A model generated the notes under the pieces. The model did not search any database and had not been told where the DNA came from. It saw nothing but the letters and a program-made list of their open reading frames with translations. Shown in pieces: positions 23,966 through 29,219 of a stretch of 64,000 nt of DNA; position 1 is the first letter of the stretch; every line of letters begins with the position of its first letter. The DNA comes from Halobaculum rubrum (lineage in GTDB: Archaea; Halobacteriota; Halobacteria; Halobacteriales; Haloferacaceae). The position numbers and the translations under genes were made by a program. The DNA is taken from positions 868,001 through 932,000 of the forward strand of contig NZ_CP082284.1 of NCBI RefSeq assembly GCF_019880225.1, written 5' to 3'.

Positions 23966-24613
23966 CTACACCACGTCGCCGCGGACGGTCGTACCCTCCT
24001 GCCGCTCGCGATACGCCGTCATCGCCTCGGCGATCTCGGTCGCCTCGCCCTCGTCGACCCCGAGCATCTCCAGCGCGCCCGACAGCGTCGGGAACGGGAG
24101 TTCGCCGTTCCGGAGTTTCGCCGTCGTCTCGGTCGCCCGCTGCCCCTCGCCGTACAACTGCACGCCACGAGGGTCGAGCACCTGCTCGTGGGCGCCGCGG
24201 TCGAGCGCGCTCTGCAGGCGTTGTCTGACGTTCCGGTCGAACGGCGCGTTACACACCTCCAGGTGGATCGGCTCGTCCTCGGGCAGGAGGTGCGCGGCGA
24301 GGCATTTCTCGGGCGCGGCGTAGCCGTTGTCGTTGGCACGGATCTGCTCGGGGTACTCGCGTGCCCACTCGGCGGAGACGGACTTCCCGACGCCCTTCAC
24401 CCCGTGGGATCGCTCGAACTCCGCGGCGGCGTCGGGGTCGTCGCCGCGCATCAGGAGGTCCTTCGTCACGTACACGTCCAGCCGGTCGATCGGGTCGAGA
24501 CCGAGCGCCACGTCGCCGTACACCCACACCTCGCGGACGGGGACGGGCATCGGCCCCTCGTCGACGGCGTCGATGATCGCCTCCACCCGGTCGAGGGCCG
24601 CCTCGCGCTCCAT
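23966..24613 (-). CDS. Conserved haloarchaeal protein (DUF7095-like)
   Basis: A 215-residue soluble protein starting MEREAALDRVEAIIDAVDEG. It contains VREVWVYGDVALGLDPIDRLDVYVTKDLLMRG, which resembles the strand-turn of nucleotidyltransferase-type folds, but the metal Asp pair is not convincing. A central AAPEKCLAAHLLPEDEPIHLEVCNAPFDRNVRQRL block looks conserved in haloarchaea (I recall it as DUF7095). No known activity. A GTCTTAC word, the same one that clusters at the cdrS/cdrL locus, sits 30 bp upstream of the start codon. Confidence 0.82.
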   Translation of the reverse strand: MEREAALDRVEAIIDAVDEGPMPVPVREVWVYGDVALGLDPIDRLDVYVTKDLLMRGDDPDAAAEFERSHGVKGVGKSVSAEWAREYPEQIRANDNGYAAPEKCLAAHLLPEDEPIHLEVCNAPFDRNVRQRLQSALDRGAHEQVLDPRGVQLYGEGQRATETTAKLRNGELPFPTLSGALEMLGVDEGEATEIAEAMTAYRERQEGTTVRGDVV

Positions 24614-24642: not shown

Positions 24643-24649
24643 GTCTTAC
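24643..24649. promoter_or_regulatory. Isolated GTCTTAC word upstream of the DUF7095-like gene
   Basis: The 9-mer CGTCTTACG spans 24642-24650 in the gap between the genes at 23966-24613 (minus) and 24746-25129 (plus). It matches the seven copies around cdrS and cdrL. It may be a further target of the same regulator, or chance. Confidence 0.35.
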
Positions 24650-26397: not shown

Positions 26398-27600
26398 TCA
26401 GCGGATGACGTCGAGGCCGTTGCTCCGCTCGGTGGACTCCTCGCGGCCGCCGTCGGACTGCCAGGCGGCCTCCTGGCCGTTACCGCTCTCGGCGTTGGCC
26501 TTCGCGTCGAAGTCGAGTTCCGAGGCCTCCCCGCCCTCGATGCTCTGCCGTGACTTGTCGGCCTGCTTTTGCGTGCTCGGGCCGAGCACCTGCGCGCTCT
26601 GGACGCCGGTCATGATGGCCATGACGCGGACCTTCCCCTTGTACTCCTCCTGGATGCGGGCGCCCCAGATCACGTTCGCGCTCGCCTCGAGGCGCTCGGT
26701 GATGTTGTCGGCGATGCCCTCGGCCTCCTTCAGCGTGAGGTCCGGGCCGCCGGTGATGTGGACGAGGCCGCCCGACGCGCCGCGGTAGTCCACGTCCAGC
26801 AGCGGGTGGTTCATCGCGTCGTTGACCACCTCCTGGGTCTTGTTCTTGTCCTGGGTCTCGCCGACGAGCATCACCGCGACGCCGCCCTGGTTCATGATCG
26901 TGGACATGTCCGCGTAGTCCAGATTGATCAGGGACGGCTGGGTGATGGTCTCGGAGATCCCCTTCACGGTCTCGGCGATGATCTGGTCCATCACCGAGAA
27001 CGCCTTCCCGATCGGCAGGTTGGGGACGTAATCGAGGAGGCGGTTGTTGTCGAGCACGATGATCGAGTCGGCCTCGTTGCGGAGCTCCTCGAGCCCCTCC
27101 TCGGCCTTCACCGTGCGGGCGCGCTCGACGTTGAACGGCGTCGACACCATGCCGACGACGATGGCGCCCTGCTCTTTGGCGATCTTCGAGATGACCGGCG
27201 CCGCGCCGGTGCCGGTCCCGCCGCCCATGCCGGCGGTGACGAACACGAGGTCCGCGTCGCCGAGCACCTCCTTGATCGTTCCCTGGGCCATCTCGGTGGC
27301 GCGCTCGCCCATCGAGGGGTCGCCGCCCGCGCCGAGCCCGTTTGTCAGGGACTTGCCGACGAGGATCTTCGTGTCGGCCTCGATCATCTTCAGGTGCTGC
27401 TTGTCGGTGTTGATCGCGACCGTCTCGGCGCCGTCGACGCCGATGTTGTACAGTCGGTTGATCGTGTTGTTGCCCGCGCCGCCCGCGCCGACGATGACGA
27501 TCCGGGGCTCCCCGAACTCGTCGTCGTCGTCGCCGACCGCCTCCATGTCGCGCTGCTCGGCTTCCGCGTTCGCCAGCGCGTCCTGAACGATGTCCTGCAT
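26398..27600 (-). CDS. ftsZ2: FtsZ2, tubulin-like cell division GTPase
   Basis: A 400-residue FtsZ of the FtsZ2 type (N terminus [15 protein letters not shown] with an acidic linker). The GTP signature GGGTGTG is at residues 126-132, GAGGAGNN at about 38-45, and the T7 catalytic loop NLDYADM near 235. The C-terminal tail after about 340 is acidic and disordered. In haloarchaea FtsZ1 and FtsZ2 work together: FtsZ2 drives ring constriction. It begins 2 bp after the stop of cdrS, so the two form a tight operon. Regulation would come from the promoter upstream of cdrS. The 198 bp downstream (26200-26397) shows no gene. Confidence 0.97.
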
Positions 27601-27602
27601 CG

Positions 27603-27794
27603 TTACACCTTGGCCCAGCTGCGCTTACTGCGCTCGCCGCGCGTGCGCTCGCCGGACGTGTCGGCCTGCTCGTTGAGCATGTCGCGGACGGCGGACCGAA
27701 TCGCCTCGCTGCGATTCGGGAACTCCCCCGTTTCGACCATCTGTTCGACCTCCTCGATCTGCTGTTTCGGGATTCGTAGTGTCACACGCTCCAT
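27603..27794 (-). CDS. cdrS: CdrS, short ribbon-helix-helix cell division regulator
   Basis: A 63-residue ribbon-helix-helix protein: [20 protein letters not shown] (the DNA-contacting beta strand, then helix A), then [14 protein letters not shown] (helix B). CdrS is reported in haloarchaea as the regulator cotranscribed with ftsZ2 that controls division, and this gene sits in the same place with a 2-bp gap. The C-terminal tail ([12 protein letters not shown]) is basic, unlike the rest of the proteome, fitting a DNA-binder. Upstream lie a TATA box and a perfect inverted repeat of GTCTTAC. RHH dimers bind such dyads, so autoregulation is plausible. Confidence 0.93.
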
Positions 27795-27877
27795 TGTTGT
27801 ATTCCCCCGGTAAGACGACGACACGCACATGCGTGGCCTCACATCGACGGCCGGAGTTTCCCCGCCCCGACACCCAT

Positions 27878-27896
27878 GTAAGACAGGCCGTCTTAC
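27878..27896. promoter_or_regulatory. Perfect inverted repeat GTAAGAC-N5-GTCTTAC, candidate operator of cdrS-ftsZ2
   Basis: Arms at 27878-27884 and 27890-27896 are exact reverse complements with a 5-base spacer (AGGCC). The dyad begins about 25 bases downstream of the TATA box at 27921-27928 on the minus strand, so it should cover the transcription start of cdrS-ftsZ2. Single copies of the same word lie at 27810-27816 (16 bp before the cdrS ATG), 27964-27970, 28004-28010, 28818-28824 and 28892-28898. This layout is what a repressor site looks like; the binding protein is not known, with CdrS or CdrL as prime candidates. Confidence 0.65.
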
Positions 27897-27920
27897 GCAC
27901 CAGTACCAATATACCGTTTG

Positions 27921-27928
27921 TATATAAA
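27921..27928 (-). promoter_or_regulatory. Predicted TATA box of the cdrS-ftsZ2 operon
   Basis: TTTATATA reading leftward, in the most AT-rich stretch of the local intergenic region. With the usual archaeal spacing of about 25 bases, transcription would begin near 27897 and give a leader of roughly 100 nt ahead of cdrS, containing the GTAAGAC words. Confidence 0.55.
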
Positions 27929-28006
27929 GATGTCGGCGGTTGTATGACCGATACCGTCAATATGTCTTACGCCGGCCGTCGGGGACGGCCGAGCCGACAG
28001 GTCGTC

Positions 28007-28750
28007 TTACGGCGCGTCGAGCACGTCGGCGGCCGGCGTCCGACGACCGCATCCCGGGCAAAAGCCCCAGTCGGAACGGATCTCGTCGCCACACTCACAG
28101 AACAGGCGTCGCGTCGCCTTCTCGCCGCAGTTGGGGCAGAAGACGTGATCGTCGGACAGGTCCTCGCCGCACTGCGCGCAGCTTCGTTCGCCTGCGTCCG
28201 ACGCGGCGTCCGCCGAGCGTGGTCCCTCGGTCGCGGGCCCCTCCTCCGACGCGGCGTCCGCCGAGCGTGGTCCCTCGGTCGCGGGCCCCTCCTCCGTCGC
28301 GGTCGCCGCGGGTTCCGCGTCCGCGGATGCGGGCTGTGAGACGCCCGCGGACGGGTCGACCGCGGCGCCCGCGCCGTCGACGTTTACCGTGAGGTTCACC
28401 GACGGAACGCGATCGCCGGCCCCGCCCGGAACGCCGAACGGACGCGCTCCGCCGACGGCCGCGTCGGTGGCGCGGCGGCGGGTTCCGAACTCCTCGTCGA
28501 GCCGGGCCGTCACCAGCTCGTCGACGCGGGCCGCGAGCGCGTCGTCGAGGGACCCGGCAGTGTCGACGGCAGCCCCCGACGGACTGCGCGTACCTGTGTC
28601 GGAAGCGTCGGCCGCGTCGGCGGCGTGCTGCTCCTCCGCGGCGTCGAGGTGCTCGCGGAGCGCCTCCCGCATGACCTCGCTTTTCGACCCCTCGAGCCTC
28701 TCGAGGCGGTCGACGAGGTCCGCGTCCGCGCGGAAGGTTATCTTGCTCAT
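28007..28750 (-). CDS. cdrL: CdrL, long ribbon-helix-helix protein with zinc ribbons
   Basis: A 247-residue protein with an N-terminal ribbon-helix-helix (MSKITFRADADLVDRLERLE then SKSEVMREALREHL, residues 1-36) and a long disordered Ala/Asp/Glu-rich middle. Two C-terminal zinc-ribbon pairs follow: CAQCGE...FCPNCGE and FCECGD...FCPGCGR (about 195-238). Its position upstream of cdrS-ftsZ2 and its domain plan fit CdrL, the long partner regulator described in haloarchaea. The middle carries a tandem duplication of a 16-residue unit. The TAA stop overlaps a GTCTTAC word at 28004-28010, and two more copies lie upstream of the start. Regulation of cdrS-ftsZ2 is inferred. Confidence 0.88.
   Translation of the reverse strand: MSKITFRADADLVDRLERLEGSKSEVMREALREHLDAAEEQHAADAADASDTGTRSPSGAAVDTAGSLDDALAARVDELVTARLDEEFGTRRRATDAAVGGARPFGVPGGAGDRVPSVNLTVNVDGAGAAVDPSAGVSQPASADAEPAATATEEGPATEGPRSADAASEEGPATEGPRSADAASDAGERSCAQCGEDLSDDHVFCPNCGEKATRRLFCECGDEIRSDWGFCPGCGRRTPAADVLDAP
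28200..28295. repeat. Exact 48-bp tandem duplication inside cdrL
   Basis: Units 28200-28247 and 28248-28295 are identical and encode two copies of EEGPATEGPRSADAAS in the disordered linker between the RHH and zinc-ribbon domains. Third positions are also identical, so the duplication is recent. Confidence 0.95.
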
Positions 28751-28817
28751 ACGAACCGTATTTCGATAGGATACATATCAATCTATCCCACGGATCCGTC
28801 CGGATCCCCTCACACGC

Positions 28818-28898
28818 GTAAGACGGGCGCACGACTCCGCGTGTGGCCCTCGTGTCGTCGTCACCACGAGAGTCGCGGCGCGATCCCATCCGTCTTAC
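28818..28898. promoter_or_regulatory. Pair of GTAAGAC/GTCTTAC words upstream of cdrL
   Basis: GTAAGAC at 28818-28824 (within CGTAAGACG) and GTCTTAC at 28892-28898, oppositely oriented with 67 bases between them, 68-148 bp upstream of the cdrL start codon. They are the same word as the cdrS dyad and may let the regulator act on its own gene or on the cdrL promoter. Confidence 0.45.
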
Positions 28899-28921
28899 AC
28901 GTCGCCGGCGTGCGTCCGCGC

Positions 28922-29219
28922 ATGCGACATCGCGAACACGGCGACGTGGGAGCGGTGACCGAGATCGGACTGGGCACGTGGAACATCGGCAGCGACTGGG
29001 GCGACGTGTCCGACGAGGCGGGTCGGGAGGCGATCCGGGCGGCCCTCGACGCCGTCTCGACGGTTATCGCCGGCCCCGCCTCCCCGGCGCACATCGGGAG
29101 CAACGTCGCCGCCGCGGATCTCGGTCCGGTCTCACCGGCTCCACGACGCCGTTCGCGACGTATACGAGGAGTACATGGCGAAGCACGTCCACGATCGCTG
29201 GTTAATTAGATTAGTCTAA
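28922..29219 (+). pseudogene. Aldo/keto reductase, internally deleted and frameshifted remnant
   Basis: Translation gives a normal aldo/keto reductase N terminus (TEIGLGTWNIGSDWGDVSDE, then EAIRAALDA) followed at once by the C-terminal segment of the same family (VSTVIAGPASPAHIGSNVAAADLG). The final helix LHDAVRDVYEEYMAKHVHDRW appears in a different frame. A complete enzyme is about 320 residues; the entire barrel core of roughly 200 residues, including the catalytic Asp/Tyr/Lys/His, is missing. The join lies near 29055 and the frameshift near 29135. The product cannot be an active reductase. The 171 bp upstream also contain the cdrL promoter. Confidence 0.85.

Follow-up and report, generated by a model that had tools for sequence, protein, structure and literature searches.

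How archaea switch on their FtsZ division genes is poorly known. The closest described system is the CdrL-cdrS-ftsZ2 locus of Halobacterium salinarum (PMC7439475), which has the same gene order and the same regulator as the locus analyzed here. ChIP-seq of CdrL-FLAG gave a single reproducible site there, upstream of cdrS; CdrL is described as restricted to Halobacteria and as encoded by all sequenced members of the class. The terms we searched for in its main text brought up no motif, nor the repeated word, its conservation or its retention in genomes lacking CdrL, and a literature text search for GTCTTAC together with archaea returned nothing relevant among the titles listed. In Haloferax volcanii, ChIP-seq of CdrS gave 18 sites, including ftsZ1 and dacZ and none at cdrS; the tagged CdrS came from a plasmid-borne construct whose name, NFlag, suggests that the tag lies beside the DNA-reading ribbon (PMC8406309). 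A further point of comparison is NikR, a ribbon-helix-helix (RHH) protein whose operator, GTATGA-N16-TCATAC (PMC7055735), has a half-site nearly identical to the GTAAGAC considered here, but a spacing of 16 bases and control by nickel.

The cdrS-ftsZ2 promoter of Halobaculum rubrum

The window, i.e. the whole stretch of 64,000 nucleotides that was analyzed, carries the three genes on the minus strand. The first gene of the operon, cdrS (27603-27794), encodes an RHH_1 (CopG-type) regulator with the ribbon MERVTLRIP, identified by Pfam (E=2.2e-8) and by comparison with 80 relatives, and is followed by ftsZ2 (26398-27600; Pfam Tubulin and FtsZ_C matches). Upstream, cdrL (28007-28750) encodes an N-terminal RHH_1 domain and a C-terminal double zinc ribbon, both by Pfam, with the ribbon MSKITFRA, which is conserved among the CdrL proteins listed. 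The assignment of both regulators to the RHH class was thus confirmed. NikR is among the solved structural relatives of both proteins, and Pfam reported no NikR metal domain in either.

The original prediction described seven copies of the word GTCTTAC/GTAAGAC around these genes (27810-28898) and took them for the operator set of a cell-division regulon. All seven lie where they were said to lie, in non-coding sequence near cdrS and cdrL, save for the copy at 28004-28010, which overlaps the cdrL stop codon (28007-28009). Read on the cdrS strand from the ATG (27794), GTAAGAC occurs at -216 (28004-28010; this copy is also present in the Halobaculum relatives L122-L127) and at -176 (27964-27970). 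These are followed by a variant, GTCATAC, at -154 (27942-27948), the TATA box TTTATATA (27921-27928, minus strand), the palindrome GTAAGAC-N5-GTCTTAC at -102 to -84 (27878-27896), a leader half-site GTCTTAC at -22 to -16 (27810-27816), GGGGGAAT and the ATG. The variant lies within the same array as the exact copies and differs from them by one base; it reads GTATGAC on the opposite strand, in agreement with the NikR half-site GTATGA (PMC7055735), and GTCATAC is found upstream of the TATA box in other genomes as well.

The palindrome is a perfect inverted repeat with the 5-base spacer that had been claimed for it, and its distance of 25 bases from the TATA box was also given correctly. The order of the arms had been given as GTCTTAC-N5-GTAAGAC and needs reversal, the plus strand reading GTAAGAC-AGGCC-GTCTTAC. 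Because the palindrome starts ~25 bp past the TATA box, it should cover the transcription start of cdrS, as placed by that distance, and we regard it as the candidate core operator.

The word is not enriched genome-wide, with 44 copies in 3,058,052 bases (3.06 Mb) against 56 for the same word read backwards, in keeping with the expectation that it would not be a common one. Seven of the 44 fall within 1,089 bp, where 0.016 would be expected (Poisson P ~5e-17), so that the clustering is not due to chance; dinucleotide shuffles of the 64-kb window, which yield 2.43 copies against the eight observed, likewise rule this out. Among 20 other copies in the genome, most overlap likely coding frames, by a rough coding test, and none clusters, which does not support a wide GTCTTAC regulon. 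Two other pairs in the genome, near-identical copies in inverse orientation, have the look of a repeated element, and six further occurrences are explained by a duplicated region whose copies lie 36 kb apart. The palindrome itself, searched for as GTAAGAC-N3-8-GTCTTAC, occurs once in this genome, at 27878-27896.

Conservation of the array across haloarchaea

A search with CdrS of a species-level genome collection provided 80 named cdrS loci from many haloarchaeal genera. The word is present at fixed places in every one of these promoters, as had been anticipated for other haloarchaea. All 80 have the palindrome, with a spacer of 4 bases in 65, 5 in 14 and 6 in one, and all have three to five half-sites. 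GTCTTAC lies within 40 bases of the cdrS ATG in 79 loci and GTAAGAC within 70 bases in 63, at least one half-site is found upstream of the palindrome in 67, and in most a TATA-like word precedes the start of the palindrome by 32-33 bp. Measured from the palindrome center, the commonest distance of the flanking half-sites is 57.5 bp on the upstream side and ~58-62 bp on the downstream side. Within the 240-bp promoters GTAAGAC is the commonest 7-mer, and the word is 92 times denser there than in the remainder of the same loci. When 18 cdrS promoters were aligned, the invariant columns were almost all half-site positions, the TATA region being less conserved.

The palindrome with spacers of 3 to 7 bases was found in 365 of 392 Halobacteriales species genomes, including 334 of the 345 of high quality, and in a single copy in every carrier except G370, which has two. 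The 11 high-quality genomes without it comprise six from family f14, with perfect arms and a 2-base spacer, three with one-base arm changes, G060, where the second arm is degraded, and G253, where no cdrS could be detected. Throughout family f14 (L082-L089) the spacer is 2 bases, or 3 in G050, in all the members read. In families f2, f13 and f15, represented by incomplete genomes, the palindrome has decayed and single half-sites persist; CdrL was not found in them.

Judged by these sequence comparisons, the array is real, old and strongly selected. The predicted operator set therefore stands as a conserved, operator-like array at cdrS-ftsZ2, but not as an operator common to a wide regulon: there is about one palindrome in each genome, and the word at the published Haloferax CdrS targets ftsZ1 and dacZ is GTCAGAC instead of GTAAGAC. 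The fixed positions of the word in nearly all of the haloarchaea examined mark a candidate landing site for a division regulator, and a nearly invariant candidate operator, present about once per genome, gives mutation, binding and reporter tests a precise target.

Candidate readers of the array

Two traits of RHH operators of the MetJ/Arc/NikR type are present at this locus: short half-sites repeated in inverted or direct orientation, and RHH_1 proteins, CdrS and CdrL, encoded beside them. The best explanation, to which we give a probability of roughly 0.58, is that the array is an RHH operator of cdrS-ftsZ2, with CdrL as the main reader and, most likely, CdrS as the second. Each GTAAGAC would be the half-site for one RHH dimer. 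Two half-sites would stand opposite each other at the transcription start, with single half-sites about 58-62 bp away on either side, and a protein on the central palindrome would prevent or modulate initiation, presumably as repression. Reading by CdrS would be a remnant of an older self-control loop, which in relatives outside Halobacteriales is based on GTCAGAC. The spacer counts against this explanation, because 2 to 6 bases are a loose fit for dimers that bind as pairs.

Published ChIP data had been named as a point of comparison for both regulators, and they place CdrL, but not CdrS, at the cdrS promoter. A single CdrL site fits an operator that occurs once per genome, and CdrL is most likely the main reader wherever it is present. 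Our CdrL profile matched 365 of the 392 Halobacteriales genomes. Among those of high quality, 12 gave no match, of which one has no cdrS locus and the other 11 retain the perfect palindrome (G003, G012, G026, G038, G039, G101, G104, G191, G227, G286 and G390). The failure to find CdrL in these eleven goes against the published claim of its presence in every sequenced member of the Halobacteria. For G191, G227, G286 and G390 the absence follows by elimination from the list of profile matches; for G003, G012, G026, G038, G039 and G101 all candidates were scored and no CdrL was found, nor was one found with an RHH-only profile, whose weak matches, where read, were antitoxin-like or NikR-like proteins. 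In nine of the eleven genomes the region upstream of cdrS contains no cdrL match. G155, a congener of G101, has both CdrL and the identical four half-sites.

If CdrL were the sole reader, these genomes would have to keep the array either because they lost CdrL only lately or because their CdrL is too divergent to have been detected, and we consider this unlikely. Such exclusive reading would suit the agreement between one ChIP site and one palindrome per genome, as well as the position of cdrL next to the array. It would also suit the ribbons: nearly all listed CdrL proteins have K-(I/V)-T-(F/V)-R and CdrS begins with MERVTLRIP in 80 of 80 loci (outside the group, the matching position reads R-(I/V)-T-(I/L)-R), so that residue 3 is K in CdrL and R in CdrS, a difference that parallels the one at base 3 of the half-site; that the first causes the second is a guess. 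The CdrL-less genomes with a perfect palindrome, however, include two species each of g32, g43, g50 and g82, the independence of the losses being judged from genus and family labels, and the RHH-only profile turned up no substitute in the subset to which it was applied. This retention lowers CdrL as the sole reader, not as one of the readers. Selection on the array seems to come from something besides CdrL, and the survival of the array where CdrL is absent points to a second reader.

CdrS, the natural candidate, is probably that reader. Its word, GTCAGAC, is one that we infer from the ftsZ1 and dacZ promoters: the former have GTC(A/G)GAC-N4-GTCTGAC directly upstream of the TATA region in Haloferax, and the latter have GTCAGAC in Haloferax and Natrinema. 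The motif is symmetric (PMC8406309), and its N4 spacing at ftsZ1 is that of most cdrS palindromes, but its half-sites have C at base 3 where the cdrS array has A, and it lies upstream of the TATA box at its targets rather than over the predicted start. The ratio of GTAAGAC to GTCAGAC is 375:12 in haloarchaeal cdrS promoters, whose usual half-site is therefore not the one inferred for Haloferax CdrS, 0:11 in haloarchaeal ftsZ1 promoters, and 1:34 in the cdrS promoters of 20 genomes outside Halobacteriales, where GTCAGAC/GTCTGAC arrays are often placed downstream of the TATA box and within the leader. We regard it as quite unlikely that CdrS is the only reader, controlling itself and lending CdrL its ChIP signal through partnership. 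CdrS is present wherever the array sits at its locus, and the equivalent array in the outside relatives is written in the CdrS-type word, but the promoters of CdrS targets use a different word and Haloferax CdrS gave no ChIP site at cdrS. When cdrS was overexpressed in Hfx. volcanii, FtsZ2 fell only to ~0.7-fold, a result that is weak support at best for CdrS as second reader and, together with the missing ChIP site, speaks against the operator explanation with CdrS among its readers. There is a slim chance that a third regulator, common to all haloarchaea, reads the array. This would account at once for the gap in the CdrS ChIP data and for the retention in CdrL-less genomes, but it has no candidate, and the published CdrL ChIP already puts an RHH protein at the cdrS promoter. 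A role for the words at the RNA level, with the cdrS message forming a 5' hairpin, is extremely unlikely. The perfect inverted repeat, with its loop of 4-5 bases near the predicted 5' end, would suit a hairpin, but half-sites also lie before the TATA box and in front of cdrL, and the loop is reduced to 2 bases in f14. Arm changes in G251, G296 and G030 are uncompensated, the leader has a folding z-score of -0.74 and Rfam gave no relevant match; on these three grounds a cis-acting RNA element is disfavored.

Returning to CdrL and CdrS as joint readers, we propose, from the distribution of the two words, that the array began as an ancestral CdrS self-control array and acquired its present word at the base of the haloarchaea. 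Its reader today would be CdrL, probably with CdrS still taking part. More tentatively, GTCAGAC may have become GTAAGAC in each half-site as CdrL arose, which would have separated the control of cdrS-ftsZ2 from that of the CdrS targets, and about one palindrome per genome would have been kept since then despite repeated loss of CdrL. The one-base difference per half-site between cdrS and CdrS-target promoters, at the same spacing, offers a clean test of how sister regulators diverged in site recognition.

Sites and features outside the cdrS promoter

Two of the seven copies lie upstream of cdrL on the minus strand, GTCTTAC at 28818-28824, ~70 bp from the gene, and GTAAGAC at 28892-28898, ~140 bp from it. 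Most Halobaculum-clade genomes have a half-site in this interval, 70-140 bp upstream of cdrL, and none was seen in the other genera compared. An eighth copy, proposed as a further target, is present as claimed at 24643-24649, reading GTAAGAC on the minus strand, and the DUF7095 gene (23966-24613) starts ~30 bp downstream of it. Its context, CGTAAGACGC, is shared by six of the six relatives in which the gene was located (L123-L128) and recurs in L003-L006, with the site kept while the flanks diverge. The site is thus conserved, although, as tested, only in Halobaculum and close relatives. Both this site and those upstream of cdrL may represent additional targets specific to the clade.

Several further observations concern the same neighborhood. 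GTAAGAC recurs at about -437 from cdrS in L007-L080, in many genera; this copy was left out of the array because it is inside the cdrL coding region, where it can be read as Lys-Thr codons. The chromosome record CP132292.1 has two cdrS loci near its opposite ends (L027 and L035), which may reflect an assembly overlap, and at one of them the cdrL match is split over two frames. In G104 (L128), a genome in which no cdrL was found upstream of cdrS, that position holds a frame of 328 aa whose start is similar to that of an aldo/keto reductase-like frame in our window; the latter (EIGLGTWNIGSDWGDVSDEAGREA...) is decayed and lies upstream of cdrL at ~28922-29170 on the plus strand. Finally, a 48-bp unit is tandemly duplicated inside cdrL (28200-28295), so that EEGPATEGPRSADAAS appears twice in the linker.
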